The position numbers were made by a program, and so were the translations under genes. From a virus, in IMG/VR virus record IMGVR_UViG_3300034061_005594, positions 1 to 37,999 of that record: a stretch of 37,999 bases of DNA; one strand, given 5' to 3'. Positions 3,176-36,797 of the stretch are shown here, one piece after another. Positions within the stretch are counted from its first letter, which is position 1; each line of letters starts with the position of its first letter. The notes below the pieces were generated by a model that did not search any database, was not told where the DNA came from, and worked only from the letters and a program-made list of their open reading frames with translations.

Positions 3176-3182
3176 TATTTAT
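3175..3182 (+). promoter_or_regulatory. Candidate late promoter box ATATTTAT
   Basis: Exact ATATTTAT, 15 bases before the ATG at 3198 and overlapping the portal stop codon. It is followed by an A-rich leader. Confidence 0.55.
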
Positions 3183-13461: not shown

Positions 13462-13467
13462 ATATTT

Positions 13468-13623
13468 TTAATTATTTAATCCGTTAGGTCCTCCTAATGT
13501 TATTGCGTTTAATTGTATTACAGCTTGTCCTTGTCCATTTGTCCAAGTTGGGTGTGGCGCGGAAACTGATGAAATTGTTTCACCTGTTGTACAAGGGCAA
13601 CAAACCACACATATTGTTGATTC
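13468..13623 (-). repeat. 156-bp direct repeat, copy 1
   Basis: Identical to 14176-14331 except one base (C at 13558, T at 14266). It encodes the shared C-terminal segment of the two Cys-rich proteins, including both stop codons. Even third codon positions match, so the two copies were made equal recently. Confidence 0.92.
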
Positions 13624-14145
13624 TGTTCCAGCTGAGAAACCAAATAAACATTCCTCGCATCCATTTTCTAAACTGAAATTTGAATGGATAATTTGGTTAA
13701 GATTTGAAAAATCGTAGTCGGTGTTATAACTAGTTTCACTAACTTGTATAACTTCAAAAACTCTGAAACATTTTGTGTAGGTGGTAAAGTCACCCCTATC
13801 ATTAAATTCAATTTCAGCATATATAACTTGGTCGATAACAGGTATATACCCAAATGTCGAAATTGGGAATACCGGAATAATGGTTCCGTCATCACAAGCA
13901 ACCAAATTAACTATAGTAAAATTATTAACTAAACAATCATAACAAGAAGAATATGTTTCTGTTGTGGCTGTTATTGTACCTAATAGTTCATCAATGTCGG
14001 TAATTTCAAAACAATAATTTATATTATCAGGTGGCGCAGTACCATCAGTTCCGGTTATGAAACTACCTATGGGTATAGATTGTCCACTAAAATTTATACT
14101 TTCTTCATTAGGACCGGTACAAAAAATTGCATTCTTAATTGCCAT
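13468..14145 (-). CDS. Cys-rich tail-type protein, twin A
   Basis: 225 residues, beta-rich by eye, no signal peptide. It begins with the block ESINFSGQSIPIGSFIT, then NYCFEITDI, then SSCYDCLVNN, a variable middle and CEECLFGFSAGTESTICVVC. The last 52 residues (SSVSAPHPTWTNGQGQAV... ending GGPNGLNN) are identical to those of the neighbouring twin at 14176-14844. Ordered Cys pairs (CYDC, CEEC, CVVCCPC) suggest metal sites or structural clusters. Position between leader-bearing and baseplate-region genes, with an ATATTTAT box, points to a late virion component. A fibre tip or surface decoration protein is possible. The DNA of the shared end is nearly identical, indicating recent duplication or gene conversion. 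Confidence 0.78.
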   Translation of the reverse strand: MAIKNAIFCTGPNEESINFSGQSIPIGSFITGTDGTAPPDNINYCFEITDIDELLGTITATTETYSSCYDCLVNNFTIVNLVACDDGTIIPVFPISTFGYIPVIDQVIYAEIEFNDRGDFTTYTKCFRVFEVIQVSETSYNTDYDFSNLNQIIHSNFSLENGCEECLFGFSAGTESTICVVCCPCTTGETISSVSAPHPTWTNGQGQAVIQLNAITLGGPNGLNN

Positions 14146-14161
14146 AATATATTTTTATTTA

Positions 14162-14169
14162 ATAAATAT
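14162..14169 (-). promoter_or_regulatory. Candidate late promoter box (ATATTTAT on minus strand)
   Basis: Reads ATATTTAT on the minus strand, 16 bases before the start at 14145. It sits in a 30-base gap between the twin genes and is followed by TAAATAAAAATATATT, the same leader as at 14861. Confidence 0.6.
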
Positions 14170-14175
14170 CTTTCT

Positions 14176-14331
14176 TTAATTATTTAATCCGTTAGGTCCT
14201 CCTAATGTTATTGCGTTTAATTGTATTACAGCTTGTCCTTGTCCATTTGTCCAAGTTGGGTGTGGTGCGGAAACTGATGAAATTGTTTCACCTGTTGTAC
14301 AAGGGCAACAAACCACACATATTGTTGATTC
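14176..14331 (-). repeat. 156-bp direct repeat, copy 2
   Basis: Partner of 13468-13623 with a single mismatch. Outside this block the twins diverge strongly at the DNA level. Confidence 0.92.
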
Positions 14332-14844
14332 AGTACCAGCAGAAAATCCGTATAAACATTCATCACACGTAGTGTAATTTGAGAAAAATATTTGTACCAA
14401 TGTGGCTTGTTGATTTGTTGGTAGACCATTGTAATCGTCCTCGGATAATTGTTCCAAACCTTCAAACTCAAAACAACCACTGTAAGTTTCAGTACCAGAA
14501 CCACCTTCGATTGTGAATTCTAAATTGAAAATACCTTCTTGTACTATATAACCGAAATCAGTTATATCAAAAACCGGTCTGTCATATGGATAATTTGAAT
14601 CACAAGGTGACAATATAACAACAGCATAATTATTTGCCAAACAATCATAACAAGAACTAAAAGTATTTGTGGTTGCTGTATATGTTCCAGATGCACTAAC
14701 GTCTGTTATTTCAAAACAATAATTAATAATATCATTTGCAGGTGGTGAATCAGTTGCGGTTATGTAACTCCCAATTGGAATAGTTTGACCACTGAAGTTT
14801 ATAGTTTCGGATGAATTATCTTGACAATAGAGAGCATTAGCCAT
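14176..14844 (-). CDS. Cys-rich tail-type protein, twin B
   Basis: 222-residue paralogue of the 13468-14145 protein. Same architecture: ETINFSGQTIPIGSYITATD, NYCFEITDV, SSCYDCLANN, a diverged middle (about residues 75-155), CDECLYGFSAGTESTICVVC, and an identical C-terminal 52 residues. Conservation is moderate at the N-terminus and absolute at the C-terminus, so the middle third is the variable part, as expected if it faces host or environment. The promoter leader is also duplicated. No recognised domain. A trimeric fibre or head decoration role would fit but is a guess. Confidence 0.78.
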   Translation of the reverse strand: MANALYCQDNSSETINFSGQTIPIGSYITATDSPPANDIINYCFEITDVSASGTYTATTNTFSSCYDCLANNYAVVILSPCDSNYPYDRPVFDITDFGYIVQEGIFNLEFTIEGGSGTETYSGCFEFEGLEQLSEDDYNGLPTNQQATLVQIFFSNYTTCDECLYGFSAGTESTICVVCCPCTTGETISSVSAPHPTWTNGQGQAVIQLNAITLGGPNGLNN

Positions 14845-14860
14845 AATATATTTTTATTTT

Positions 14861-14868
14861 ATAAATAT
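14861..14868 (-). promoter_or_regulatory. Candidate late promoter box (ATATTTAT on minus strand)
   Basis: 16 bases before the start at 14844; box plus leader closely match those at 14162-14169. Confidence 0.6.
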
Positions 14869-14875
14869 TTACTTT

Positions 14876-16339
14876 TTATTTATAGTTCACAATTTGGAAC
14901 TTTATTTGTCTTTTATATGTGTTTACCTCCCCACTACTTTCAACTTTGATATCAATAAAATACTCATTAGGTATTTTATCCCTTGTGTCAAATATGAAAT
15001 AGTATTCATTTGGAGTTCTATTAATTGCAGTCCAATCTTGAACTTGAACTTCTGTTTGACCTTCTCTTACATACACACGATAATAAGCACTTACTTTTGG
15101 TAACAATCTATTTGTTGTATATGCTTGTTTGATAATAACCCCAACTTTTCTAACATCAGTATTAAATATTTTCTCATCTTGTTTGATTCCATAATAATCG
15201 AATCCATATATTTTTGGTTCTACTGAATTTGTTCCAATTGTAAATCCATTTTTAAATGGTTGTAATGTAAAGTCATTTAGTACATTTGGAAGTGGGAATC
15301 CATTATAAGTTAAACCAGTCCATCTATCTGAAAATGTACAAGGGGTCTTATATCCGAAAAGTGGGGGTACACTTACCTCATAAACACCTTGAGTTCTCTG
15401 ACACACGGTTAAACCAGTAGGATTTATAACTACATTACCTGAATTGTCTAAAATGGTTACGCTTGGTAATGAATCTAAATTGATTGGGTTACCATCTTCA
15501 AATAAGTATAGGTATAATTTGTTGACCCTTCCCAAAACAAAATTGTTTCTATCATCTTCTATCAGGTCATCAAATGATGTTTCCAAATATGGTTCGTAAA
15601 ATGTTTGAGTGTGTCTTGTAAAGAATTGTACTTCGTAAGTATCTGTAAGACCTGATAATAATTCAACTTGAGGTTTGTATGCAATAATCCAACCTGTAAC
15701 ACCTGAAATCCCCCCATTTAGTAAGTCATTAATTTCTGAACTCATATCAAGTTCGATATTTTCATCACCAAATTCGAAGTGTTGTTCAGTCACTAGTGTG
15801 AGTCCTGTATATGGATATGAACCAAAGTTTCTATTATTGTAAATTCCTTCTTCTTGCCATTGACTTATAGTTGTAGTTTCAAACCAATTTGAAGGTCTTG
15901 TTGAGAAGTTTCTATCGAAAGGACTATATTGATAAATTAAATCAGCAAAATCATATCCAACACCCTCGTCCCATAGTTGTGGTGTACTTTGGTCAAAATT
16001 AATTGGGGGAATTCTCAGTAAAACTAAATCAAAGGATGTTGCTCTTTGTCTTCCTTGAGATGTTGATGTATTTAATAATTCTTTATTAAAGGTGGATGTA
16101 TTAACCATTCTCAAGGTATGTTTCATAGTTGAACAAGTTGAGGAAATGGTTCCGTTTGAAATCTTTTCTCTTAAAGCATCTAAATCTAAATCGAAAATGA
16201 ATCTACTATAACCCAATGGATATTGTGTTACTACGGTAGTACCAAAAAATAGTTCAGTTACTGGGTTTCTTCCAGTATTAGTGTAACTATTCGATATAAT
16301 GGTATTATTTCTACTAAAGTATGATTTGTGAATTGACAT
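14876..16339 (-). CDS. Large virion protein, adhesin/tail-type, unknown family
   Basis: 487 residues, rich in aromatic and polar residues and beta-like throughout. Residues 1-240 resemble a DNRLRE-type beta domain as found in surface proteins (LDLDALREKISNG; TLRMVNTSTFNKELLN; SFDLVLLRIPP; WDEGVGYDF), seen by eye only. The middle, NKLYLYLFEDGNPINLDSLP then SVTILDNSGNVVINPTG, looks like an Ig-like beta sandwich, and the C-terminal 90 residues form another beta domain (VSAYYRVYVREGQTEVQVQD). It starts 15 bases after its own ATATTTAT box and lies between baseplate and Cys-rich tail genes. Probably a tail-fibre, neck or baseplate-attached protein. The exact role cannot be read. Confidence 0.75.
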   Translation of the reverse strand: MSIHKSYFSRNNTIISNSYTNTGRNPVTELFFGTTVVTQYPLGYSRFIFDLDLDALREKISNGTISSTCSTMKHTLRMVNTSTFNKELLNTSTSQGRQRATSFDLVLLRIPPINFDQSTPQLWDEGVGYDFADLIYQYSPFDRNFSTRPSNWFETTTISQWQEEGIYNNRNFGSYPYTGLTLVTEQHFEFGDENIELDMSSEINDLLNGGISGVTGWIIAYKPQVELLSGLTDTYEVQFFTRHTQTFYEPYLETSFDDLIEDDRNNFVLGRVNKLYLYLFEDGNPINLDSLPSVTILDNSGNVVINPTGLTVCQRTQGVYEVSVPPLFGYKTPCTFSDRWTGLTYNGFPLPNVLNDFTLQPFKNGFTIGTNSVEPKIYGFDYYGIKQDEKIFNTDVRKVGVIIKQAYTTNRLLPKVSAYYRVYVREGQTEVQVQDWTAINRTPNEYYFIFDTRDKIPNEYFIDIKVESSGEVNTYKRQIKFQIVNYK

Positions 16340-16354
16340 CTATGTACTTTATAC

Positions 16355-16362
16355 ATAAATAT
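16355..16362 (-). promoter_or_regulatory. Candidate late promoter box (ATATTTAT on minus strand)
   Basis: 15 bases before the start at 16339; overlaps the last base of the preceding baseplate gene. Confidence 0.55.
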
Positions 16363-17948
16363 CAATTAATTCGGATATTTTGATTAAGTATCAAACTTTC
16401 GGCATTGTTAAGTAAAGTTTCAATATCCTCTAGTCTTTGTCCGTTACCACTTGCAGTTTTTGCTGGTTTAATTATAGCAATAGGATGAACATGACCTTCT
16501 AAGAAAGCATACATCTTTCTCAATAATTCAATTAGGACTTCACCCCTCACACTTGAATAGGTAAGATTTTGTAATGAGTTTTTACCTCTAATAAAAGCAT
16601 TTTGAGGAATCCCATAAATGGTATCCTGAAGATTAATTTTAGTTTTTTTACTTGTGGAGTCTTGCGATAGTAAATATATTTTTTGAGCTCCCATAACACC
16701 ATAACTTACTGGTTCAGATTTGAATGAACTTGGGAATATGGTTTGTCGTACAAGGTCGTATTGACTACCATAAATTGGTTTTTCTCCTTTTTTATTAAAG
16801 ACTAAAAAATAACCAGATTCTTTGGAAGCTTTTTCTAAACTGATTGCACCAAGAAATTTACTATAATTACGTATTTCGATAGCATCTGTAAGACTATTTG
16901 CCGCGTTGAATTTATTACCCACTTCATAGGTAAGTTTTGATGGTGTAACAACAAATGGGAAGGGGTTTTTGAAAACTTGTTGTTCTTGTGATGTATAACC
17001 ACTGAAAGTCAAAAATTCATCAAAAACACCTCTTATAAAAGTGTTTATTATATAAATGGTATCCTCAAAAGTATTACCTGTAAACTCTATTTTTGTACTG
17101 GTTTCCCTTATGTCAGTACCTATAGTAATTTTAGTTATTGTTTCTGAATCAAAATTGGAAGTGTTAAATTCGGTACTACTTTCGTTCCATTTGTAAAGTT
17201 TAACATATCCCGTAAACATATTTGGTGTTACATCGTTATCCAAATTATTAATATGCCACTCAACAACAGTATTAATTAATTTACTTACTTCTTTGAACGA
17301 GGTACTTGTTTGTGCCGTATCCTGAACTTCTTGTATTGGAAAATATGATAATTGTAAAAATGCTCTTTTGGTGTTTGGTGTTGGTAGTCTATTGTAAACT
17401 AATTCAGGTGTTTTACCCGCACGAAGTAATACATCATTTTCTTTTATAATCACATCCGCAGTTCCTCTTCCTAAAATACCAACATCTTCAGGTTTAGGAA
17501 AAATACCTTCAGTACTACCCCCTTCAGTAATTATATAACTACCATCTTGATTTCTCAAAGATATTCCTTGTTCATATCTTGAACCAGTTGCCAAAAACTT
17601 TTTTGCGCCTTGGAAATTTTCAAATGGACTTAATAAAGGACTTGAAAAAGGTCCTTGGATGTAAAACTGATTTTCCCTTTTGAATTTTTTATTCATATAG
17701 ATTATATGAACATATTCATCATTCTGTGGGGTTTGATTTATAAAAAAAGGAAGAAGTGGTAAAAACAAAATAGGATCTTTACTTGTCCATTTCATTTTCT
17801 CCTCATCCCAATCAGGAATAGAGCCAATAATAGCGGTATAATCATCTGTTTCAGGTATTACACGAAGTCTACCTAACATCATAGGGTCTTGATTATCAAA
17901 AACCGTACCTGCAAAAATTATTTGATATTCATTAGGTGGGGTACTCAT
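16362..17948 (-). CDS. Baseplate spike/hub protein with gp5-like OB domain
   Basis: 528 residues. The N-terminal ~110 residues look like the OB-fold of T4 gp5/gpV/VgrG spike proteins: IIFAGTVFDNQDPMMLGRLR, then VIPETDDY, then KDPILFLPLLPFFINQTPQN and DEYVHIIYMNKK, that is 'LGR(v/l)RV...' followed by the conserved inner strands. Downstream are Gly-rich strands (GSYIITEGGS; VGILGRGTADVIIKENDVLL) like a small beta-helix or OB repeat, and a helical C-terminus containing the HVHP motif (FLEGHVHPIAIIKP) seen in many phage spike and baseplate proteins. No lysozyme domain is apparent. Its start overlaps the preceding gene by ATGA (17945-17948), so translation is probably coupled. Confidence 0.8.
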   Translation of the reverse strand: MSTPPNEYQIIFAGTVFDNQDPMMLGRLRVIPETDDYTAIIGSIPDWDEEKMKWTSKDPILFLPLLPFFINQTPQNDEYVHIIYMNKKFKRENQFYIQGPFSSPLLSPFENFQGAKKFLATGSRYEQGISLRNQDGSYIITEGGSTEGIFPKPEDVGILGRGTADVIIKENDVLLRAGKTPELVYNRLPTPNTKRAFLQLSYFPIQEVQDTAQTSTSFKEVSKLINTVVEWHINNLDNDVTPNMFTGYVKLYKWNESSTEFNTSNFDSETITKITIGTDIRETSTKIEFTGNTFEDTIYIINTFIRGVFDEFLTFSGYTSQEQQVFKNPFPFVVTPSKLTYEVGNKFNAANSLTDAIEIRNYSKFLGAISLEKASKESGYFLVFNKKGEKPIYGSQYDLVRQTIFPSSFKSEPVSYGVMGAQKIYLLSQDSTSKKTKINLQDTIYGIPQNAFIRGKNSLQNLTYSSVRGEVLIELLRKMYAFLEGHVHPIAIIKPAKTASGNGQRLEDIETLLNNAESLILNQNIRIN

Positions 17949-24753: not shown

Positions 24754-25728
24754 TTATTTATTTTTATAAAAATCTAACCAGTATTCAATCATTTCGTCTA
24801 ACATAGTTTCAAATGTGTAGTTATGACTCCAACCAGTTGTTTTAATTAATTTAGATGAATCACCTTTCAAGTTGTGTAATTCTTCAGGTCTTAAAAACTT
24901 TTCATCAACTTTAACATAATTATTATAATCCAAATCTAAATAGGAAAATACATATTCACATAAATCTCTAACTGAGTGTGAAATACCCGTAGCACAAACA
25001 AAATCATCAGGTTTTTCCAATTGCAAAATTTCCCACATAGCGTTTACATAATCTTTAGCGTGTCCCCAATCTCTAGTTGCATCTAAATTACCTAGTTTTA
25101 ATTCATTAGATAATCCTAGTTTAATTTTAACAGCTTCTTTACATACTTTGTTTGTGACAAAATTTGTTCCCCTTCGAGGTGATTCATGGTTAAACAAAAT
25201 ACCATTAGAAATGAACATCTTGTAAGAATTTCTGTAGTTTCTACAAATGTTGTAACTAAAAACTTTTGCACAACCATAAGGTGAGACTGGATTCATAGGT
25301 GTTGTTTCCCTTTGATATCCATCACTATCAACCGAATTTCCGAACATTTCAGAGGATGATGCTTGATAAATCTTTGTGTCAGGTTTGATTAATTTTACCG
25401 CTTCTAGTAAATTTAGAGTCCCTAATCCAGTTGTATTACAAGTGTAAATGGGTTGTTCAAACGAAATTTTTACATGTGATTGTGCAGCGAGATTATAAAT
25501 TTCATCTGGTTGAACTTTTTGAATAATATTAATTATTGAGGACAAGTCAGTCAAATCAGCATAATATAAAGTAATTTTGTCATAAACTTTATTTAATCTC
25601 ATTGTCTGATTTTCGGTTATTGAGTTTCTTTTTAACGTACCATACACATCATAACCTTTATCTAACAATAATTCTGTTAAATATGAACCATCTTGTCCAT
25701 TTATACCTGTGATTAAAGCTCTTTTCAT
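24754..25728 (-). CDS. gmd: GDP-mannose 4,6-dehydratase
   Basis: Converts GDP-D-mannose to GDP-4-keto-6-deoxy-D-mannose, the branch point for GDP-fucose, rhamnose and dideoxy sugars. 324 residues, normal length. The NAD(P) motif is ALITGINGQDGSYLTELLLD at residues 4-23. DVYGTLKRNS follows; the active-site SSEMFG supplies the Ser/Thr, and the YxxxK pair lies in VSPYGCAKVFSYNI. NHESPRRGTNFVTNKV and DATRDWGHAKDYVNAMWEIL are Gmd signatures. Downstream partners on the same strand include a GDP-fucose-synthase-like SDR and a ColD-like enzyme, both able to use its product. Confidence 0.95.
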   Translation of the reverse strand: MKRALITGINGQDGSYLTELLLDKGYDVYGTLKRNSITENQTMRLNKVYDKITLYYADLTDLSSIINIIQKVQPDEIYNLAAQSHVKISFEQPIYTCNTTGLGTLNLLEAVKLIKPDTKIYQASSSEMFGNSVDSDGYQRETTPMNPVSPYGCAKVFSYNICRNYRNSYKMFISNGILFNHESPRRGTNFVTNKVCKEAVKIKLGLSNELKLGNLDATRDWGHAKDYVNAMWEILQLEKPDDFVCATGISHSVRDLCEYVFSYLDLDYNNYVKVDEKFLRPEELHNLKGDSSKLIKTTGWSHNYTFETMLDEMIEYWLDFYKNK

Positions 25729-25729
25729 T

Positions 25730-26407
25730 TTATGAAATAAGTTTGAAAGTTAAATTTGGATTTATTAATATAGAAAAAGTTGATAAATTAGATTTACTAC
25801 AAATAAAAGTTTTTGTTTTAGATAAAGTAAAAACACCGAATATTAATTCATTTATATGATTTTTATTTTCTTTGAAAAAGGGTAAAGCACCATTAATTGA
25901 AGTAAAATCGTCATATGTGATTATCATATTACCATATCTTTTTTTGAACTTTAAGGTGTCATCTGAATTATCACACATCAAGAAAATGTTTTTGAAATTT
26001 TGACTTTCAATAGTATTAAATATTTTTTGCAAATCAACTACTTTGTGATGTTGGTATATATCTGTTGCACGTCTATGAACACCTATTGTATTATCAAAAT
26101 TTATTTCCAAATGTCTTTTTGCTAAAAGTAACTTGAATTCATCATTCGGAATAAAAAAATTATCGATGACATATTTAGAAAATTGTCTAACTTCAAAATC
26201 ATAAGAAAATGGATTATAACAATCCAAATTTAGAATATTTTGAGTTAATTCGATATTTTCATATAAGTGTTTTTGATTTATAAAGTCAAAATTACCTTGC
26301 ATGAAACTAATTTCAAACAAATTATTATTACCATAACCAGGAATATCAACTAAATCATGATAATACTTAATGTCTTTTTTTCCATTAATTTTTACATAAT
26401 TTATCAT
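25730..26407 (-). CDS. Fucosyltransferase-like protein (GT23/GT11-type fold)
   Basis: 225 residues from ATG 26407 (a GTG at 26416 is also in frame but less likely). Motifs: IGVHRRATDIYQHHKVVDLQ resembles the basic HxRR donor-binding loop of alpha-1,2/1,6-fucosyltransferases, and FLMCDNSDDTLKFKKRYG then TLSKTKTFICSKSNLSTFSI resembles their C-terminal 'D......l..sd..i.s.SSfs' block. It lies between Gmd and the ColD-like gene. A transferase for the GDP-sugar made by its neighbours is the natural reading, but the subfamily is uncertain. Confidence 0.65.
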   Translation of the reverse strand: MINYVKINGKKDIKYYHDLVDIPGYGNNNLFEISFMQGNFDFINQKHLYENIELTQNILNLDCYNPFSYDFEVRQFSKYVIDNFFIPNDEFKLLLAKRHLEINFDNTIGVHRRATDIYQHHKVVDLQKIFNTIESQNFKNIFLMCDNSDDTLKFKKRYGNMIITYDDFTSINGALPFFKENKNHINELIFGVFTLSKTKTFICSKSNLSTFSILINPNLTFKLIS

Positions 26408-26479
26408 ATTTAGCACCGACTCAGTTAAATATGAAACAATCCTCTGAATTGTTGTTTCCCCCTTGCCGGTTTATATAAT

Positions 26480-27631
26480 CTATTCATTATTTATAATTTT
26501 ACTTATGAAATTTATATCATCTATTTTTAAGTCTTGGTGGTTTGGGATATAAAATCCGAACTCATTTATTTTTTCACAATTGGGTAACTCTACGTAACCA
26601 AACTTTTCATACCACATAGGTTTTTTTGACATATTACCAGCAATAAGAGGTCTTACTTCAACATTACCTGAGATTAATCTACTTACAATTTCCTTTTTGT
26701 TAACTGAAACTATGGGTAATGCGAAATTGGAAACAAAGTCATCTTTTTTTTCTGTTAGATGAATTTCATTTATTTTAATAGAATTAATGTAATGCTTAAA
26801 ATTTTTATTTCTCTTAGTTGAGAAATCGTCAAGTTTATCTATAGCTCTAATACCGATGAAGGCTTGTAAATCTGTAGATCTCAAGTTAAATCCGGGTACG
26901 TAAAAATTATACAAAGAGTCAAAATCAGAAACATTGTATTTTTCCCTTAGTTCTACTTGTTTACTAATTGGTAAGTCCCTATCCCATCCGTGACTTCTCA
27001 TCATCAAAAGTAGATGATAGAAATCCTCATCATTAGTATTAATAAATCCACCTTCAATCGTACTCAAATGATGTCCAAAATACATAGAAAAAAAAGATGC
27101 GAAACCAAATGACCCTAAATATTTTCCTTGAAATTTAGAACCCATACTTTCACAAACATCTTCAAATAATAATACGCCATACTTTTCACAAAGAGAAATA
27201 ATTTCATTCATATTTGGTACTAATCCTAATGGTGAAACTAAAATCATACAAGAGGGTGAATGTTCCTTAAAAATTTTTTCTAAATGGGTTAAATCACATG
27301 ATAAGTCTTCTAAATTACAATCACACATAATTGGTTCCATACCTAATAAAATTGGTGAACTTACATCCGTAGCCCAACTTAAACCTGGTACAACTATTTT
27401 TTTGTTCCTTAACTTACCTAATTCTAAAATAGCCGCCAGAGTCAATAAAATAGCCGATGAGCCAGAATTAACATAGACAGAATATTTTGTACCAATTTTT
27501 TTTGCCCACTTTTTTTCTAATTCAAAGGTTAAATTTCCTTTTGTTAATTTGGGTATTTCATCTTGATTCAACCAATCTATAAGATATTTGATATCTTCTT
27601 TATCTATTGTGTCACTAACTAATTTAATCAT
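26480..27631 (-). CDS. DegT-fold PLP enzyme with His-His in place of catalytic Lys (ColD/RfbH-like dehydratase)
   Basis: 383 residues, sugar aminotransferase fold. Typical blocks: VNSGSSAILLTLAAILELG (PLP phosphate), LLFEDVCESMGSKFQGKYLG, PGFNLRSTDLQAFIGI and VEVRPLIAGN. In normal DegT aminotransferases a Lys in 'SFH..K.ittGEGG' binds PLP; here the segment is SMYFGHHLSTIEGG (residues 182-195), with His187-His188. The same replacement defines the 3-dehydratases ColD (GDP-4-keto-6-deoxymannose) and RfbH (CDP sugar). With Gmd nearby, a GDP-4-keto-6-deoxymannose 3-dehydratase giving a colitose-type 3,6-dideoxy sugar is the best guess. RSHGWDRDLP and the C-terminal GFYIPNHQDL also match ColD. Overlaps the next upstream gene by 8 bases. 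Confidence 0.8.
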   Translation of the reverse strand: MIKLVSDTIDKEDIKYLIDWLNQDEIPKLTKGNLTFELEKKWAKKIGTKYSVYVNSGSSAILLTLAAILELGKLRNKKIVVPGLSWATDVSSPILLGMEPIMCDCNLEDLSCDLTHLEKIFKEHSPSCMILVSPLGLVPNMNEIISLCEKYGVLLFEDVCESMGSKFQGKYLGSFGFASFFSMYFGHHLSTIEGGFINTNDEDFYHLLLMMRSHGWDRDLPISKQVELREKYNVSDFDSLYNFYVPGFNLRSTDLQAFIGIRAIDKLDDFSTKRNKNFKHYINSIKINEIHLTEKKDDFVSNFALPIVSVNKKEIVSRLISGNVEVRPLIAGNMSKKPMWYEKFGYVELPNCEKINEFGFYIPNHQDLKIDDINFISKIINNE

Positions 27632-28526
27632 AATAACTTTTATAAACTAACTTTATTCCTTCAGCTAATTTTAATGGTGAAAAGTTAGGTAGTAAAGTCT
27701 TTATTTTTTCAATTGACACATCTTTTCTGTATTGACCATTAGGTTTGGTTTTATCCCAAAAAACTTTTATGTGCTTGGCATCACAAGATTCTAGTGCAAT
27801 ATCAACCATTTGTTTTATGGATAAATTTTCTTCTACGGCAACATTAAAACTTTCAAAAATGTCTTCCGTTAAAACTTTGTAAATCACTCTTGCGAAATCT
27901 TCTGCGTACATAAACTGACGAAGAGGAGAACCATCACCATATAAAGTAATAAATTCATCATTATTTTTTTTAGCTACATAAATTTTTTTAATCAATGCAG
28001 TTATAAAATGACTATTCACTTCATCGTCTTTATCCCCAACACCATATAAATTACATGGTGTTAAATATTGATATTTTGTACCATATTGTTTGTTGTAACT
28101 ATCTATTTGAACAGCTAAGTTTCTTTTAGCATATCCATAAGAAAAATTAGTATGAGTTGGTGGTCCTAAATGTAAATCACTTTCACTCATTGGGTAACTT
28201 TCTACAACATCTGGGAATATACAAGTACTTAAAATACCAATAAAACGTTCAACATTATTTTTTCTTGCATAATCAACAATAAGAGTATTCATTAAAACGT
28301 TTTGGGTGAAATATTCGGCAGGAAAATTTATATTATCTATAATACCTCCTACTTTAGCTGCTAAATGTATTATAGTTTGAGGTTTTTCAACCTCAAACAT
28401 TTTTTTTACTTCAATTTCAGATGTTAAATCATAATCTACAGACGACAAATATTTCGCATTGGGTAATAATTTTTGGAGTGCTTTACCAACTAAACCCGAA
28501 CCTCCTGTTACTACAATTTTTTTCAT
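27624..28526 (-). CDS. fcl: GDP-L-fucose synthase-like (or ColC-like) epimerase/reductase
   Basis: 300 residues from ATG 28526, which places MKKIVVTGGSGLVGKALQKL at the N-terminus (Rossmann GxxGxxG) and avoids overlap with the gene before. IIHLAAKVGGI, the active-site SSTC-like GILSTCIFP, the YxxxK pair in NFSYGYAKRNLAVQ, and LYGDGSPLRQFMYAEDFARV are hallmarks of GDP-fucose synthase. It would turn the Gmd product into GDP-L-fucose. The colitose reductase ColC has similar fold and chemistry, so with the ColD-like gene directly downstream it could instead finish GDP-colitose. Gene symbol given for the family. Confidence 0.88.
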   Translation of the reverse strand: MKKIVVTGGSGLVGKALQKLLPNAKYLSSVDYDLTSEIEVKKMFEVEKPQTIIHLAAKVGGIIDNINFPAEYFTQNVLMNTLIVDYARKNNVERFIGILSTCIFPDVVESYPMSESDLHLGPPTHTNFSYGYAKRNLAVQIDSYNKQYGTKYQYLTPCNLYGVGDKDDEVNSHFITALIKKIYVAKKNNDEFITLYGDGSPLRQFMYAEDFARVIYKVLTEDIFESFNVAVEENLSIKQMVDIALESCDAKHIKVFWDKTKPNGQYRKDVSIEKIKTLLPNFSPLKLAEGIKLVYKSYYD

Positions 28527-28527
28527 A

Positions 28528-29322
28528 CTATATTTTAATCCACTGTTCACAATACAAATCATTTGTATTATGGTTTTTTAATTTTTCACCAAACCATTTT
28601 TTTGGTGCGACTACTTTTTTATTTTCATTTTTATTTAACCACGCACCCCACCAACTGAAACTTGAATTTGCAATTATATTATGGTCACATAAGGACATCA
28701 AATACAACTCTTCAAAATCATTGAATCCACTTACAAAAGTTTTATTTTTAAGAAAAGAAAAGTTGTCTTTACACCAATTGATATCGTCAGAAAAAATTAA
28801 GTAATTTGTATCTTGACCAATAATTTCAGTAGCTTTTTTATAATAATTAATATCTAACAAACAATGATAATCACTCAAGTGAACGTAATCACCTCTTCTG
28901 ACATGGATTGAACAAGATTTTATATTGGGAAATTTTTCAAGGAAAAAATTTACTTTATTTATGGTGTTTTTATTAGGTTCAAACAATTCTAAAATGTTTT
29001 TTCTATATACATTAAAATATTTTTCACTTTGGAAATACCCTCTTATTTCTAAATTGTTAGTTGTATTTGGTATTGGTACAAATGAAAATTCCTTTTCAAC
29101 ATAAACATCATCTATGTTTGTTTTTTTCTGAAAAGGAATTTTTCTTAATAAATCTTCTTTGTAAAATGAAAAATGTTTGTGTGGAGTATTGTCCATAATT
29201 TCATCACAATAAAAATATTTACCATCCCTCATTGCCACAGAATATCCTGCAGCAATTTGAAACATCATATTTCCCAAACCTCCCATCAATTTTGTGATAA
29301 TACTATAATTATTATTTTCCAT
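28528..29322 (-). CDS. Alpha-1,2-fucosyltransferase-like (GT11), copy 1
   Basis: 264 residues from ATG 29322, chosen because it aligns with the start of the paralogue at 35167. GT11 motifs: MGGLGNMMFQIAAGYSVA at the N-terminus, SIHVRRGDYVHL (the HxRRGD basic motif that binds GDP-fucose), LIFSDDINWCKDNF, and LMSLCDHNIIANSSFSWWGA with the conserved SxFSWW. It transfers fucose, or a related GDP-linked deoxy sugar, onto a glycan. Paralogous along its full length with 35167-35961 (more than half the residues identical by eye). Just downstream of the HAD gene, overlapping it by 11 bases. Confidence 0.92.
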   Translation of the reverse strand: MENNNYSIITKLMGGLGNMMFQIAAGYSVAMRDGKYFYCDEIMDNTPHKHFSFYKEDLLRKIPFQKKTNIDDVYVEKEFSFVPIPNTTNNLEIRGYFQSEKYFNVYRKNILELFEPNKNTINKVNFFLEKFPNIKSCSIHVRRGDYVHLSDYHCLLDINYYKKATEIIGQDTNYLIFSDDINWCKDNFSFLKNKTFVSGFNDFEELYLMSLCDHNIIANSSFSWWGAWLNKNENKKVVAPKKWFGEKLKNHNTNDLYCEQWIKI

Positions 29323-29617
29323 CCTTAAAAAAATCTGAATCATTAATTGATTTATCATCTACTAAAACATCAAAATTTAATTTAATTCCTGTTCTTAGTA
29401 AATGAAATTTAACACCCCATTGATTTAATTGTTTTTTTGTAAATTCATACCAATCAATTTTTGTAGTACTACCTCTTGCAGTATCTATCAATATAACATT
29501 TCCATCATCGTATAATTTATTAACCACATAAATTCTTTCAAAAAAAGGATTTGCGTGTTCATAATTACCATTAGTATTAGTACATAAAGTCCCATCCAAA
29601 TCAAAACAATATATCAT
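29312..29617 (-). CDS. Small HAD-family phosphatase-like protein
   Basis: 101 residues. Motif I CFDLDGTLCTN is intact, ILIDTARGSTTK gives motif II, and VLVDDKSIND the acidic motif near the C-terminus. This is a minimal, cap-less HAD as found in polysaccharide loci, where it may remove a phosphate from a sugar intermediate. Its start overlaps the end of the NeuB-like gene by 17 bases and its end overlaps GT11 copy 1 by 11, so the three are coupled. A KdsC/NeuB-pathway phosphatase role is possible but unproven. Confidence 0.82.
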   Translation of the reverse strand: MIYCFDLDGTLCTNTNGNYEHANPFFERIYVVNKLYDDGNVILIDTARGSTTKIDWYEFTKKQLNQWGVKFHLLRTGIKLNFDVLVDDKSINDSDFFKDGK

Positions 29618-30437
29618 TTACTTTCCTAAGTTTTTTAATTATTGGTTTTTCATTATCATAAATAACTTTTACACCATCCCCTAAAACTAATTCCATTTTT
29701 CTTATTCCTGAAACTAGTTCTTCAATATTTTCTATCGAGGCCGATTGATCTGAACCATACATAGTTCTGTCTAAAGTTATGTGGAACTCAATACATTCAC
29801 TACCAATAGCAACCGCACCAAAACAAGGAATCATTCCACTAGCATGATTAGAAAATCCAACTTTTAAGTTAGGGTATTTTCTTTTAAGTGTTAAAATATA
29901 ATTCAAATTTATTTCCTCATCTTTCGTAGGGTAAGTACTTGTACACGCCAAGACGTATTCAACATTTGTTAAAATTGATAATGCCTTGTCTATTTCATCT
30001 TGGGAACTCATACCAGTTGAAACTATTAAAGGTTTATTAGTTTTATTTAGTGCAAGTAAAAAACTTTTATCAGTTAAAAGGGCTGATGGTACTTTGTGAT
30101 ATTTTACGTTACAATTGTTCTCAATCAACTCTAAACTGATTAAATCCCAACAAGATACAATAAAGTCTATACCCAAATTTTTGGTGTAAGTCTCCAATTC
30201 TTTGTATTGTTCAATTGAGAATTCAATTCCTTCTTTTTGTTCTCTAAATGTAGTACCCCAAGGTGATTCTCTAAAACTATTTAGTTCTTCACTAGTATAA
30301 ACTGAATCAATATCTCTTTTTTGGAATTTTACAGCATCACAACCACTTTTTTTAGCTAAATCTATTAATTTTTTTGCTGTAGATAATTCACCATTATGGT
30401 TTATACCAATTTCTGCAATAATGTAATTTTTTTTCAT
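29601..30437 (-). CDS. neuB: NeuB-family nonulosonate synthase, lacking SAF domain
   Basis: Condenses a hexosamine-type sugar with phosphoenolpyruvate to give a nine-carbon sugar acid such as sialic or legionaminic acid. 278 residues. Blocks: IIAEIGINHNGELSTAKKLI, GCDAVKFQKRD, YHKVPSALLT, STGMSSQDEI, YVLACTSTYPTKDEEI, VGFSNHASG, and EFHITLDRTMYGSDQSAS. The TIM-barrel catalytic domain is complete, but the usual C-terminal antifreeze-like (SAF) domain of about 60 residues, found in most 340-350 aa NeuB proteins, is absent. The stop is followed at once by the HAD gene. Substrate specificity is not readable. Confidence 0.9.
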   Translation of the reverse strand: MKKNYIIAEIGINHNGELSTAKKLIDLAKKSGCDAVKFQKRDIDSVYTSEELNSFRESPWGTTFREQKEGIEFSIEQYKELETYTKNLGIDFIVSCWDLISLELIENNCNVKYHKVPSALLTDKSFLLALNKTNKPLIVSTGMSSQDEIDKALSILTNVEYVLACTSTYPTKDEEINLNYILTLKRKYPNLKVGFSNHASGMIPCFGAVAIGSECIEFHITLDRTMYGSDQSASIENIEELVSGIRKMELVLGDGVKVIYDNEKPIIKKLRKVNDILF

Positions 30438-30464
30438 TTTTTTTTATTTTTTTATTTTTTATTT

Positions 30465-31283
30465 TTACCAAACGGTTTTACCACCATCAATTATTAAATT
30501 AGTTCCAGTCATATACGAACTCGCATCTGAACACATAAAAACAATAGCTCCTTTATATTCATCGATATCTGCCATTCTACCCATTGGTATAATATTAGAT
30601 AACTTATTAACAAAATCAATCGGATGGTCATTATAAACCCCAGTCGGACTTAAACAATTTACTCTAATATTCTTTTTAGCAAAATATGTTGAAAGATATT
30701 TAGTCATACCTACTATTGCCCACTTAGCTGCCGAATATGTTATTGGTTTTACATTCTGTTCATTTTCTAATTTTGTTTCATCTCTGTAAATTCTTTGGTC
30801 TGGTGCAATTACCCCTAAATCAGATGATATGTTTAATACAACTCCACCACCATTTTCTAACATTTTATTACATATTACTTGTGAAGTTATAAATGTTCCA
30901 TTTATAATAGCATCAATACCCTCTTTGAAGTAAGATTCAGTCATCACCTCAAATCTAGTCTCAGGTGTCAAACTTTTACTGTCTTTAGTAACTTTAGGAT
31001 CTTTAGCTGCATTATTAATAAGAATGTCAATCTTATCGTATTTTTTTGAAACATTACTTACACTAATTTTATCTGTAACATCCATATATTCAACAAAAAC
31101 ATTTTCTTTCCCATACATTAAAGAAATTTCTTTATACTTGATTGATAGTTTGTCAATATCAATATCAGTAAGAATTACTTTTGCACCATATTCTAAAAGA
31201 GCTTCAGCATGTTTTGGACCTAATAAACCTGCTGCACCTGTAATTAAAGCAGTTTTACCATCTAAATCAAATAGATTTCTCAT
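30465..31283 (-). CDS. Short-chain dehydrogenase/reductase (PtmA-like)
   Basis: 272 residues, classical SDR: NAD motif TALITGAAGLLGPKHAEALL, NNAA, catalytic Ser in VVLNISSDLGVI, and YSAAK in ITYSAAKWAIVGMTKYL. The 'AGLLG.KHAEAL.E.GAkVIltDI' opening resembles SDRs that sit beside NeuA/NeuB genes in flagellin and LPS loci (PtmA type). Overlaps the TIM-barrel gene by ATGA (31280-31283). It probably oxidises or reduces a sugar precursor of the nonulosonate branch; the exact step is unknown. Confidence 0.88.
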   Translation of the reverse strand: MRNLFDLDGKTALITGAAGLLGPKHAEALLEYGAKVILTDIDIDKLSIKYKEISLMYGKENVFVEYMDVTDKISVSNVSKKYDKIDILINNAAKDPKVTKDSKSLTPETRFEVMTESYFKEGIDAIINGTFITSQVICNKMLENGGGVVLNISSDLGVIAPDQRIYRDETKLENEQNVKPITYSAAKWAIVGMTKYLSTYFAKKNIRVNCLSPTGVYNDHPIDFVNKLSNIIPMGRMADIDEYKGAIVFMCSDASSYMTGTNLIIDGGKTVW

Positions 31284-32050
31284 AATAAATTTTTTATTTT
31301 TTCGTATGTGTTTTTTATATAATTTATTTCGTCATCATCAACACCTCTTGCCAATTGTAATATAATATTTTCATTGTAGTTAATATTTTTTAATGAATCA
31401 ATTATAGTTTTGAAGTCAGTGTCACCTAAACCAAATTGTTTTGTTTGACCTTTGTAAGTTCTATCTTTGAAATGGACATTTTTTATTTTAGAACCAAAAA
31501 AGGATATTAATTCTTTATGGTTTATTTTTTCTTTATATACTGAGGTAAAATTACCAGTGTCGTAAGTTATATAATAATTTGGTTGGTTTTCTACGAATTC
31601 TTTTACTATTTCCTTATTACATTCAAATTCAAAACAGAAATTAATTATTGGATATTTTTTTGTAATAGGTATTAAGTTGTTGAGAAATTTGTATCTAATG
31701 TTTTCGTCTTCTATTGAACTATCTTCCAAAAGTGGAATTACAATTTTACTTAATTCCAATTCTAACATTCTGTCCAAAACGGGTAACAAATTTTCGTTCA
31801 GAAAATCATATTCATAAAACGAACTATTAACCATTGTATCCATACACACTGAAAGTATCTTTGATGATAATATTTTTTCAGTAAAAAAGGGATTATTAAA
31901 ATTAAATTCAGGTGTTATTAACCATTCAATACCACTAAGTTCAACTTCAGTCAAATCCAAAAATTCTTTTTCCCAAGTTAAAAATGGAAACTCTTGTATT
32001 TTATTATTAATTGGTTTACTCAATCTACCTTGTAAAATCCCAAAAATCAT
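31280..32050 (-). CDS. Sugar phosphate isomerase/epimerase-like TIM-barrel protein
   Basis: 256 residues. Opens MIFGILQGRLSKPINNKIQE, a pattern of the AP-endonuclease-2/xylose isomerase-like TIM barrels. Candidate metal ligands are Glu in NFCFEFECN, Asp in YYITYDTGNF, and His/Asp in IKNVHFKDRTYKGQTKQFGL followed by GDTDF. Coupled by ATGA overlaps to genes on both sides (31280-31283 and 32047-32050). In this setting it would epimerise a sugar intermediate of the nonulosonate branch; substrate unknown. Confidence 0.8.
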   Translation of the reverse strand: MIFGILQGRLSKPINNKIQEFPFLTWEKEFLDLTEVELSGIEWLITPEFNFNNPFFTEKILSSKILSVCMDTMVNSSFYEYDFLNENLLPVLDRMLELELSKIVIPLLEDSSIEDENIRYKFLNNLIPITKKYPIINFCFEFECNKEIVKEFVENQPNYYITYDTGNFTSVYKEKINHKELISFFGSKIKNVHFKDRTYKGQTKQFGLGDTDFKTIIDSLKNINYNENIILQLARGVDDDEINYIKNTYEKIKNLL

Positions 32051-33015
32051 TTTTTCCCAAAATTATAAGGTGTTGGTGCTGAAGAAGATAATTGAAATTC
32101 AGTGTTAAAATCTTTAATTTGTTTTTCAATATCTATTCCAACATTTTCACTCCATTTATTTAACAATTTTCTTGTAATTTTACCCATACCATTTGTTAAT
32201 TCAATGTAATTAATTGATGTCATTGGAAGAATACAAAATGGGGTTGCAGTCATAAAACATTCATCTGATGTGTACGCATCATAAAGAGTTAAGTCGGTTT
32301 CAATACATTCAATATTAAGTTCTTCACATAAATCAAATATATAATCCCTACTAATACCTCTCAATATATTATGTCCTTTTGGTGTTAAAACTCTACCATT
32401 TTTTACAAAAAAAACATTGTCACCACTACCTTCAGCTATATAACCATTTTCATCTAATAATATAGCCCAATTGTTTTCCCCTTTATAAAACGAGGCTTCA
32501 ATATTCGCCATTTGATAGTGTAACCTACTTCTATTTTTTATTCTTGGGTCTAATAAATTATTACTAATAGCTCTTTGGGGGGTAATCACACCATTTATAC
32601 CCCCATCAAACAACTTACCCATACCATTTACTGTCCATTTAAGTGGAAAGTCAGCAATAATTACAGTGGGTTGTGGATTATCAAAGAGATGAGAATATAA
32701 ACCTAAAGGTCCCCTACTGATGTTTATCATTAGTCTATGTTCATCGGTAGCTAAAAAACTTGGTTCATTGACTTCAACAACTAAATTACAAAAATCAATC
32801 ATCTGTTCTTTGGTATATTGAATTGGAATTCTCAATATTTTTAATCCATTAAATAGTCTGTCAATATGTTCTTCTAACTTAAATTGTTTTTTATTAAATG
32901 ATCTAGTCATTTCAAAAACCATATCACCAAACATTAAAGCCGAATCATAAATAGAAATTTTAGCATCCATTTCATCGACAAATTCACCATTATAAAAAAC
33001 TTTTCTAATTGACAT
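32047..33015 (-). CDS. Class IV aminotransferase (IlvE/D-amino-acid transaminase fold)
   Basis: 322 residues from ATG 33015, which sits one base after the methyltransferase stop; the open frame to 33099 would overlap that gene. Motifs: KVFYNGEFVDEMDAKISIYD then SALMFGDMVFEMTR (N-terminus of the fold); the likely PLP Lys in DPRIKNRSRLHYQMANIEA; NGYIAEGSGDNVFFVKNGRV; and LTPKGHNILRGISRD. All are IlvE/DAAT family blocks. Such enzymes normally act on branched-chain or D-amino acids and are not usual in sugar loci, so it may supply an amino-acid substituent or aminate an unusual keto acid. Coupled by ATGA to the TIM-barrel gene. Confidence 0.88.
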   Translation of the reverse strand: MSIRKVFYNGEFVDEMDAKISIYDSALMFGDMVFEMTRSFNKKQFKLEEHIDRLFNGLKILRIPIQYTKEQMIDFCNLVVEVNEPSFLATDEHRLMINISRGPLGLYSHLFDNPQPTVIIADFPLKWTVNGMGKLFDGGINGVITPQRAISNNLLDPRIKNRSRLHYQMANIEASFYKGENNWAILLDENGYIAEGSGDNVFFVKNGRVLTPKGHNILRGISRDYIFDLCEELNIECIETDLTLYDAYTSDECFMTATPFCILPMTSINYIELTNGMGKITRKLLNKWSENVGIDIEKQIKDFNTEFQLSSSAPTPYNFGKK

Positions 33016-33016
33016 A

Positions 33017-33625
33017 TTATTTAATTTTACCATAAAAATAGTTCCTAATTGAACCATTATTTTTTTTATTGAAAAAACTTCCATATTCTTGAATATCAAT
33101 AACGTCTGAAAAATATTCCATCACTCCATTATTGTCTGTAAAATATTCTTTACCATATTCTTGAATACCATTAGGATATGTGTTTAATGTGTGAAAAAAA
33201 CCTTTCCCTTTGTGTTTTGATAGTATTTCTTTGAATTCTTTTAATTTTTCTAAAACATACCAAGTTACTTCAATCATCATAATACAATCAACATTATTGT
33301 ATAAATGTTCATTAGTTATGTCTGATACGATAAAATTACATTTAGGATAAAGTTTTTTTGCTTTATAAATTGCATTCTTTGATATATCAACACCTACAGA
33401 TACATCACATAGTTCTTTTATTCTGTTTGTATAATGACCATGACCACAACCTAACTCAATAACGTTTTTATAATTGTTTTTTTTAATTATTGATAAACCC
33501 AAAGTTTTCTCATGACTATATATTTCTCTCGTTGACTGTTCCCATGGGTCATCAAATAAACGATACATTTCATCAAATTCCCCAACAAATTTTCCCCCTT
33601 TAATTACAAAATCTTGGTATTTCAT
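33017..33625 (-). CDS. SAM-dependent methyltransferase
   Basis: 202 residues, class I methyltransferase: motif I VIELGCGHGHYTNRI near residue 55, SVGVDISKNAIYKAKKLYP, and the acidic DITNEHLYNNVDCIMMIEVT block. The N-terminus (EMYRLFDDPWEQSTREIYSH) resembles sugar-locus methyltransferases of the NodS type. It overlaps the NeuA-like gene by ATGA (33622-33625), so it probably methylates a sugar made by this operon, but a glycan or protein target is equally open. Confidence 0.87.
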   Translation of the reverse strand: MKYQDFVIKGGKFVGEFDEMYRLFDDPWEQSTREIYSHEKTLGLSIIKKNNYKNVIELGCGHGHYTNRIKELCDVSVGVDISKNAIYKAKKLYPKCNFIVSDITNEHLYNNVDCIMMIEVTWYVLEKLKEFKEILSKHKGKGFFHTLNTYPNGIQEYGKEYFTDNNGVMEYFSDVIDIQEYGSFFNKKNNGSIRNYFYGKIK

Positions 33626-34293
33626 TTCATTTTGTTTTTATAAATAATTTCACAAAGTTCCAAATCCTCTAAACTATCAATCTCAAACATTTTCCAATTT
33701 TCCATTAATGAAAAACCAATTTTTCCAAATAATCTGTTTTTACTCTCTAAAAAACCTTTTTTATTAAAAACATAGATTGAGCCGTTCTCAACATATTGTT
33801 TTTCAGAATCTTGTCTTCTTTTTCTATTTTGGTGGTCATAATTAACACTTCTCAATTTACCATTATTAGATTCCCAAATTAACATATCTTCTAATTCTGA
33901 TGCCGAAAATACAGAATCAAAACCACCATCAATTAAAGTTTTTATACAATTATCAATATCATAACTACTTCTTAAAGGTGAAGTCACTTGTAAAAAAACA
34001 ATGTAATCATATTCTTCATCCAAAGTTTCAATTACATGAAGTAACGCACTTTCACTTGTTGAAGTATCCGTTGAAAGATAATTTGGTCTGATTAATATTT
34101 CAGCGCCATAGGACTTAGATATTTTTAATATTTCTTCACAATCACTACTTACAACAACCTTATTTATATGTTTTGATTCTATTGCTTGACTTATTGTATG
34201 ACCTATTAAATGTTTGTTCGCAAATTGAATAATATTCTTTTTAGGTATTCCTTTACTTCCACCTCTCGCCGGAATTATACATAAAATATTCAT
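33622..34293 (-). CDS. neuA: CMP-nonulosonate cytidylyltransferase (NeuA-like)
   Basis: Activates a nonulosonic acid with CTP to CMP-sugar. 223 residues, typical. The signature IIPARGGSKGIPKKNIIQFA is intact; VVVSSDCEEILKISKSYGAE, TSTSESALLHVIE and YIVFLQVTSPLRSSYDI follow as in NeuA/PseF/LegF. Coupled by ATGA to the genes on both sides. The substrate would be the product of the NeuB-like enzyme about 4 kb downstream on the same strand. It cannot be assigned to Neu5Ac, Pse or Leg from sequence alone. Confidence 0.92.
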   Translation of the reverse strand: MNILCIIPARGGSKGIPKKNIIQFANKHLIGHTISQAIESKHINKVVVSSDCEEILKISKSYGAEILIRPNYLSTDTSTSESALLHVIETLDEEYDYIVFLQVTSPLRSSYDIDNCIKTLIDGGFDSVFSASELEDMLIWESNNGKLRSVNYDHQNRKRRQDSEKQYVENGSIYVFNKKGFLESKNRLFGKIGFSLMENWKMFEIDSLEDLELCEIIYKNKMK

Positions 34294-35006
34294 AATTTCT
34301 CAGTATTAAATATTGTTGATAGTGGTGAATCCTGACTTAAATTAATAATTTGTACCCCAACTTTTTCAGCACTCTCAAGAATAATCTTGAAATCATTTAA
34401 TATATTTTCTAAATAAGGGTCAAACGAATCCGAATTAATTGTTTTAGAATTAAAATAACCTTTTTTATAATTTAAGTCAACACCTGTTAAATATATTTTT
34501 TTACAACCCAAAAGTATCGATAATGCTAACATATGTAAGGCAACCGTGTCTCCAGAACCATACCTTGATGGGTTACCAGTATAGTTTTGTAATTCTTCTT
34601 GAAGAGTTAATCTATTTTCAACAAAGTTGTTGCAATTGTTTGGGCAATTACTACATTTTTTATTATCAAAGTGTCTTTGATCATAACCAATATATTTTAC
34701 GTTAATTAAATTTTTTTCAATCCATTCTATTGGTGTTGTGTCAACAGAATCTGAATGAACTATTACACTATCCTTGTATTTGATTATTCTTTCATACATA
34801 GAAACTATAGTTGATATTGAATTAGCAAAAACCCAATAATCTGGTATGATATCACAAACTAAATCAATATCATTACAAGATATAAAAACTATATTTGTTC
34901 TATTTTCATTTATAAATTTAATTGAATCTCCAAGTGAAGGTCCTAAACCACAAACAAATGCAGTTTTATTGGCTTCGATGTTTATGATTTTTTTTATAGA
35001 TGACAT
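34290..35006 (-). CDS. DUF115/Maf-like Rossmann protein, putative nonulosonate transferase
   Basis: 238 residues. Opens with TAFVCGLGPSLGDSIKFINE (a nucleotide-type Gly motif 'v.G.GPSL') and has a conserved C-terminal block RYGSGDTVALHMLALSILLG then CKKIYLTGVDLNY. Both recall DUF115/Maf proteins, which transfer pseudaminic or legionaminic acid to flagellin in other bacteria. A four-Cys cluster KKCSNCPNNCNNF near residue 115 could bind metal. It is coupled to the NeuA-like gene by ATGA. A sugar-transfer or sugar-sensing role is inferred from context. Confidence 0.68.
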   Translation of the reverse strand: MSSIKKIINIEANKTAFVCGLGPSLGDSIKFINENRTNIVFISCNDIDLVCDIIPDYWVFANSISTIVSMYERIIKYKDSVIVHSDSVDTTPIEWIEKNLINVKYIGYDQRHFDNKKCSNCPNNCNNFVENRLTLQEELQNYTGNPSRYGSGDTVALHMLALSILLGCKKIYLTGVDLNYKKGYFNSKTINSDSFDPYLENILNDFKIILESAEKVGVQIINLSQDSPLSTIFNTEKL

Positions 35007-35011
35007 AAAAG

Positions 35012-35170
35012 TTAATTTTCAGATATAACCCATTTAATAAATTTAGACAAACCATATTCTAAATCGTACTTTGGTACCCAATTTAATTCAGTTTTTATTT
35101 TATAAATATTACCTTTTGCATATAATATATCACCTGGTCTATGATAATCAGTTACAATAATTTTTTTCAT
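35012..35170 (-). pseudogene. Relic of an SDR sugar epimerase with large internal deletion (52 codons)
   Basis: A short frame reads MKKIIVT, the classical start of an NAD-dependent sugar epimerase, directly joined to DYHRPGDILYAKGNIYKIKT and ELNWVPKYDLEYGLSKFIKW, a normal C-terminal end of such enzymes. The catalytic middle of about 250 residues, including the Gly motif and YxxxK, is missing. The frame is intact and starts in an ATGA overlap with GT11 copy 2, as intact neighbours do, so it may still be translated. In-frame internal deletion of a UDP- or GDP-sugar epimerase is the best explanation. A real mini-protein is the alternative. Confidence 0.7.
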
Positions 35171-35961
35171 ATCACAAACCAATTTTTACAATACAAGTCA
35201 TTTGTGTTATAGTGGCTTAATTTTCTACCAAACCACAAAGATGGGGCTATAACTTTTTTGTTTTCATTTTTATTCAACCATGTCCCCCACCAACTAAAGG
35301 TTGAGTTTGCTATAATATTGTGTGTGCACAAGGACATTAAATATAGTTGTTCAAAATCCTCGAATTCATTAACAAATGTTTTATTTTTTATAAAAGAAAG
35401 ATTGGATTTACACCATTCTAAATCGTCTGAAAAAATTAAAAAATTAATATTTTGTCCAACAATATTTATTGCCTTCTCGTAGTAATTTATATCAAGTAAT
35501 GGGTGGAAGTCACTCAAATGAGTGTAATCACCTCTTCTAATATGAATGGAACAAGTTTCTGAAAGTGAGTGTTGATTAAAAAATTCATCTACCTTTTTTT
35601 TCGTTTTTTCACTTGGTTGGAACAATTCTAAAATATCATTTCTATTTTCGTAAAAGTATTTTTCACTCTGAAAATAACCTTTTAATTCTACATTTGATTC
35701 TAAATTAGGAATTGGACTAAATGAAAAATTGTTTTCTGGATAAACAACTTGAACATTTGTTTTTTTGTCAAACGTAATTTTTCTCAATATGTTTTCAGTG
35801 TAATAAGTATAAGAACGATGAGGACAAACTCCCATCATCTCATCACAATAAAATTTTTTATTTTGTTTGAGGGCAGTCGAAAATGTTGTTGCTATTTGAA
35901 ATAACATATTTCCCAACCCACCATTTAGTTGGATTGTAATATTGTATTGTTTATCATCCAT
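35167..35961 (-). CDS. Alpha-1,2-fucosyltransferase-like (GT11), copy 2
   Basis: 264 residues, paralogue of 28528-29322. Motifs: LNGGLGNMLFQIATTFSTAL, SIHIRRGDYTHL (HxRRGD), LIFSDDLEWCKSNLSF, LYLMSLCTHNIIANSTFSWW and the shared end ending NTNDLYCKNWFVI. The conserved LKGYFQSEKYF block is also common to both copies. Divergence is spread along the length, so the duplication is not recent. Two copies suggest two acceptor positions or two sugar donors (fucose and a colitose-like sugar). Confidence 0.92.
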   Translation of the reverse strand: MDDKQYNITIQLNGGLGNMLFQIATTFSTALKQNKKFYCDEMMGVCPHRSYTYYTENILRKITFDKKTNVQVVYPENNFSFSPIPNLESNVELKGYFQSEKYFYENRNDILELFQPSEKTKKKVDEFFNQHSLSETCSIHIRRGDYTHLSDFHPLLDINYYEKAINIVGQNINFLIFSDDLEWCKSNLSFIKNKTFVNEFEDFEQLYLMSLCTHNIIANSTFSWWGTWLNKNENKKVIAPSLWFGRKLSHYNTNDLYCKNWFVI

Positions 35962-35983
35962 TTTTATGTGTTTTAACTTATTT

Positions 35984-36793: not shown

Positions 36794-36797
36794 TTAT

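Follow-up and report, generated by a model that had tools for sequence, protein, structure and literature searches.

A constant C-terminal module on variable, exchanged bodies in a family of putative display proteins of uncultured phages

Phage tail fibres combine a constant anchor with an exchanged recognition part, with homologous recombination at the conserved edges. Usually, the N-terminus of a phage fibre is kept and the C-terminus varies, but there are also phage fibres that differ in their bodies and share a conserved C-terminus. PMC10385173 describes T4 Hoc and Hoc-like proteins as a conserved C-terminal particle-binding domain preceded by small beta domains whose number varies, with some phages encoding a long and a short Hoc-like copy of up to 1174 aa. 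The proteins analyzed here resemble T4 Hoc, as described there (PMC10385173), in their plan of a constant C-terminal domain and a variable domain string, and in that long and short copies sometimes occur together. Unlike Hoc, which has a 96-aa alpha/beta domain, they end in a module of ~54 aa with an invariant Cys and a GGPNGLN end, and their units are of a Cys4 type and not Pfam Ig; moreover, their genes lie near hub and tail genes, whereas Hoc binds the centre of the major capsid hexamers. Comparison of the module alignment (A2) with residues 281-376 of T4 Hoc using hhalign yielded a probability of 0.1% over 2 columns, the whole Hoc sequence likewise showed no relation to alignment A3, and PHROG gave no match either. 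Bodies consist of one to five or more units of ~75 aa in a row, with no Pfam Ig match and no clear PDB fold match for the body model. Judged by the comparisons with the T4 Hoc sequence and the PHROG scan, the module proteins are Hoc-like in plan, but not Hoc by sequence. With tail fibres carrying exchanged receptor-binding parts they share a constant and a swapped part and recombination at conserved edges, but here it is the C-terminus that is constant. With the C-terminal chaperone or foldon domains of fibres they share a constant C-terminus on varied bodies, whereas stand-alone modules occur here.

We consider it probable that these genes encode Hoc-like display proteins, in which a constant C-terminal anchor would attach to the virion and recombining bodies would bind a ligand. 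Each gene would then specify a virion decoration or adhesin protein, of which the constant ~54-residue C-terminal module would fasten the protein to one site of the particle, and the variable N-terminal body, usually a Cys4 string and sometimes a propeller or leucine-rich-repeat domain, would be displayed. Homologous recombination between phages would swap the bodies by way of the leader and start codons that they share at one end and the module at the other, and such swaps would presumably be of benefit to the phage. By the same homology, neighbouring genes could convert each other's module, or one gene could be lost through a deletion between the modules; in the twin genes described below, which have two units each, one module would recently have converted the other. 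This would add, in uncultured phages, a family of probable surface-display proteins that is absent from the profile libraries searched. Since the exchanged and the constant parts are cleanly separate, recombination products become predictable and an anchor-driven exchange of bodies becomes testable.

The window, i.e. the whole stretch of DNA analyzed, comprises the 37,999 bases of an IMG/VR virus record. Based on profile matches of its proteins to portal, head maturation protease and major head protein, it is classified as DNA of a T4-like phage. Among the 2,483 named phage records that gave a match to its major head protein, none reaches 60% identity; the best matches in named phages include Flavobacterium phages (40%) and, going by distant kinship only, the host of these uncultured T4-like phages may belong to the Bacteroidota. 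The twin genes, referred to as A and B, and their surroundings are listed in Table 1. Neither of the two twin proteins had a match in PHROG or Pfam.

Table 1. Features of the twin-gene region, given as positions in the window.
Feature	Description	Position	Strand
Gene A	225 aa; C-terminal module preceded by two Cys4 units of ~75 aa	13468..14145	-
Gene B	222 aa; C-terminal module preceded by two Cys4 units of ~75 aa	14176..14844	-
Gene A C-terminal module	55 codons and stop	13468..13635	-
Gene B C-terminal module	55 codons and stop	14176..14343	-
Homogenised tract, copy A	1 difference	13467..13623	-
Homogenised tract, copy B	1 difference	14175..14331	-
Gene A body	variable part, 170 aa	13636..14145	-
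Gene B body	variable part, 167 aa	14344..14844	-
Gene A leader and start	85% like that of gene B	14141..14181	-
Gene B leader and start		14840..14880	-
Conserved upstream neighbour	487 aa; Ig-like/beta-sandwich domains in the model of residues 260-487	14876..16339	-
Conserved 528-aa neighbour	weak match of one homologue to the gp5 baseplate hub profile	16362..17948	-
Conserved downstream neighbour	155 aa	12994..13461	-

The sequence-only reading of the window had pointed to relatives as the place to look for more copies of the module, and a viral contig scan found the ~54-residue module in 79 further viral contigs, with the 80 best matches kept out of 105 relatives. A second viral scan, using the alignment, gave the same 79 loci. 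The counts of module genes and of their neighbours in this survey (the best 80 of 105, 79 loci) refer to 80 contigs, namely these 79 and the window; L001 and L002 are the window itself, and L003-L010, being second fetches of L011-L089 contigs, were left out. These 80 contigs, from the best 80 of 105 relatives and the window, carry 108 module genes (52 contigs with one and 28 with two), and the module is C-terminal in 107/108 of them: no residue follows it in 91 genes, one in 16 and 23 in a single gene. This exception is found in L060 (5358-6032) and is the same in its other fetch, L009 (6001-6675); the extended gene overlaps the next module gene, and the 23-residue tail is probably the result of a small deletion or frameshift. 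C9, P27, LGG (47-49) and GLN (52-54) are the same in each of 31 module sequences. Named phages gave no tblastn match with a window protein, two module variants or the 487-aa neighbour as queries; a profile scan of cellular genome contigs with the module alignment gave 7 pattern stretches, none of them a relative; PDB profile searches gave nothing below E 0.09; and no description of this module was found in the literature at the level of titles and abstract openings.

One alternative explanation could be that the module is not an anchor but a C-terminal folding or trimerising piece of fibre proteins, of the foldon or intramolecular-chaperone type, which is constant since it folds many bodies. 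The conserved C-termini of varied phage fibres would fit this role, as would the large proteins located between two module genes in L046, which look fibre-like (seen by eye; no PHROG match). In addition, much of the body is confident in the structure model of gene B, and the module blocks reach a pLDDT of about 36-66 as a monomer; this lack of a confident monomer fold, which a trimeric piece might show, was counted against the anchor reading. Pfam gave no match to a foldon or peptidase family. What makes the folding role unlikely in our view is the occurrence of stand-alone modules, about 54-61 aa long and preceded by just 4 to 18 residues, which would be needless for a cis-acting piece; the module is therefore kept without a body.

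Regarding the bodies, the best 80 of 105 relatives yielded 83 distinct module proteins after identical ones had been collapsed, 75 of them with a complete 5' end. Their complete bodies range from 4 to 1139 aa, which, together with the C-terminal position in 107/108 genes, bears out the exchangeable C-terminal module on variable bodies that had been proposed from the window. More than nine in ten bodies of at least 40 aa (61/66) are linked by similarity, and most bodies are strings of ~75-aa units, as recognized by an iterated profile. Bodies of 72-78 aa contain one unit, those of 147-170 aa contain two, and longer ones reach six, so that the body lengths form a ladder of 0, 1, 2, 4, 5 or more units. 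In an alignment of 152 body units, Cys makes up 98-100% of four columns, and the final two of these form a CxxC; no Pfam or PHROG model matched the Cys4 unit in the scans made. A fold search with the 222-aa gene B model gave no clear PDB match (best Z 5.3 over 58 residues), and a second search gave no match below 0.001. Besides that, the body of L086 contains a DUF5122 propeller (Pfam), the bodies of L025, L027 and L066 show propeller-type matches below Pfam's cut-off, and L048 (2073-4253) combines a leucine-rich-repeat body with the C-terminal module. One viral record of 153 kb encodes two separate module proteins of 1188 and about 851 aa (L086 2587-6153 and L091 2810-5365 (-)), the first with DUF5122 propeller repeats.

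The module genes are found in a syntenic order of a hub-like gene, the 487-aa protein, one or two module genes and the 155-aa protein. Among the best 80 of 105 relatives, the 487-aa homologue lies upstream in 62/80 contigs and the 155-aa homologue downstream in 70/80, and neither is present in 9/80. A weak match to the gp5 baseplate hub profile (E 5e-4, 24 residues) was obtained for one homologue of the 528-aa neighbour, and in L086, which is a distinct lineage, the module gene is placed between tail sheath and tail tube matches, with a baseplate hub match further on. From this one weak gp5 match and the gene order of L086, we infer that the module proteins may be a tail component; by gene order, the tail or baseplate is a more likely location than the head. 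Fold searches with the 487-aa neighbour reached Z scores of up to 11, mostly to Ig-like/macroglobulin chains and with high rmsd; this arrangement is a common one, and the C-terminal half matched it with modest scores. The neighbouring hub-like, sheath and tube genes, the binding-type folds and the analogy with Hoc all suggest bodies that putatively face the host or environment.

The exchange of bodies was followed in close pairs, defined as genes of different contigs with both flanks at least 85% identical (16/168 pairs, after 111 genes had been reduced to 75 by collapsing identical ones). Bodies could be compared in 13/16 of these pairs; with flanks and module alike, the body was replaced in five and kept in eight. 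In the same pairs, the hub gene was kept in 7/7, the 144-aa gene in 12/12, the 487-aa gene in 8/8 and the 155-aa gene in 10/13 with three partial cases, of which two control neighbours supply the flanks and are thus partly circular as controls. For example, L024 and L050 share 98% upstream, 100% in the module and 92% downstream, but their bodies of 872 aa and 545 aa show only 28-35% likeness in pieces. In most pairs, the replaced bodies show 25-40% amino acid identity, so part of their difference could be due to fast evolution; based on this sequence likeness, exchange appears to stay inside one broad body family. Strains differ in the number of module genes, with one each in L040 and L042 and two each in L044 and L039. 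In L040, the first body of L044 is joined to the second module and its flank, and 11/14 informative sites of this module, counted by eye, are of the second type; in L042, the upstream flank is joined to the second body inside the first codons. Junctions are found both at the start codon and at the edge of the module, and one case is a deletion between modules that turns two genes into one; the structures of L040 and L042 are the products expected of recombination at module and leader. A constant part with a body exchanged among close relatives is a trait of phage domain-swapping adhesins and is found here. The swapping of domains that the sequence-only reading had suggested is therefore supported between close relatives, by 5/13 replaced bodies and by the junction places. 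A store within the genome for the cassette system that it had suggested was not supported: all 17 whole viral records, which may be fragments (the window record has only 38 kb), contain just one or two modules each, and no archive of silent donor copies was found in these records. As no internal body store was seen, the donors appear to be other phages.

In the window itself, positions 13468-13623 and 14176-14331 contain a single mismatch in 156 nt (13558/14266). Reading of the sequence shows identity extending one base beyond the stop codon (break at 13466/14174) and ending upstream just after 13623/14331; the tract end coincides with the end of the homology between A and B, and a repeat search returned a direct repeat of 213 nt at 91% across the twin genes. 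Outside the tract, 275/489 nt of the bodies are identical, with the N-terminal unit reaching 77% over 111 nt, so near-identical ends, diverged middles and moderately similar N-termini are all found as first described. In the segment-wise comparison of substitutions that had been proposed, the same codon is used at 49/50 conserved degenerate positions of the tract versus 45/78 in the bodies (Fisher p = 7e-8); silent sites are therefore homogenised too, and protein constraint alone is insufficient. Codon constraint alone was also ruled out by the module of the closest relative (L003), which keeps just 27/41 conserved codons relative to the A and B modules alike; both are equally far from it, so that neither stands out as the donor. 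The tract is best explained, on these codon figures, by recent gene conversion or module transfer, in agreement with the original interpretation.

In the 17 contigs with two distinct modules, within-genome module identity ranges from 0.56 to 0.98 and is at least 0.76 in 10/17, compared with a between-genome median of 0.57 and a 95th percentile of 0.72 (2,758 pairs). The two modules are not homogenised in 7/17 genomes, which speaks against a general rule. In L025 and L027, the modules within each genome (0.87, 0.86) are more similar than those of the matching long genes (0.76). As a tentative extension, module and leader could act as a plug-and-play socket, in which conversion would keep the module DNA of a genome uniform, phage populations could slot any binding scaffold, be it a Cys4 string, a beta-propeller or leucine-rich repeats, in frame onto one virion site, and a stand-alone module would be an empty plug.

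All sequences are metagenome assemblies, including the window, and the module is a repeat; an assembler might have copied one module into both genes or joined haplotypes at the repeat. Indeed, the 6175 nt downstream in L023 are 100% identical to L050, whereas its body is that of L024, and this contig end could be chimeric. For the twin genes we regard such an artefact as very unlikely: the two copies are distinguished by a base in the middle of the tract, leaving no exact repeat longer than about 91 nt, and homogenised pairs occur in 10/17 contigs with clear divergence in most. A recent tandem duplication with bodies diverging fast by selection, without conversion or swapping, would agree with the two-unit plan and the N-terminal likeness shared by A and B, but is scarcely credible and was rejected on silent sites, since the bodies of A and B (45/78) are about as diverged as those of gene B and another phage (58/101 codons kept), yet 49/50 codons agree in the tract, and relatives have a replaced body between conserved flanks.

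The leaders of A and B are indeed alike (85% over 41 nt), as had been noticed, but their interpretation as a special duplicated promoter of the twins was rejected. The A/T element TATTTATWAAATAAAAA recurs ahead of several window genes (7 sites versus 1.2 expected) and is therefore a general leader, not specific to the twins; examples are found at positions 3176, 4664, 14152, 14851 and 35092. TATAAATA, the T4 late-promoter sequence, occurs 18 times in the window versus 8.8 expected.

Apart from this locus, the window carries a long run of sugar-nucleotide/glycan genes on the minus strand (24754-37892), comprising GDP-mannose dehydratase, DegT aminotransferase, epimerase, NeuB, cytidylyltransferase and UDP-galactopyranose mutase genes. 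NeuB was found in 0/17 related viral records. The run also includes two family 11 glycosyltransferases in this one phage fragment, at 28528-29358 and 35167-35961 (-).
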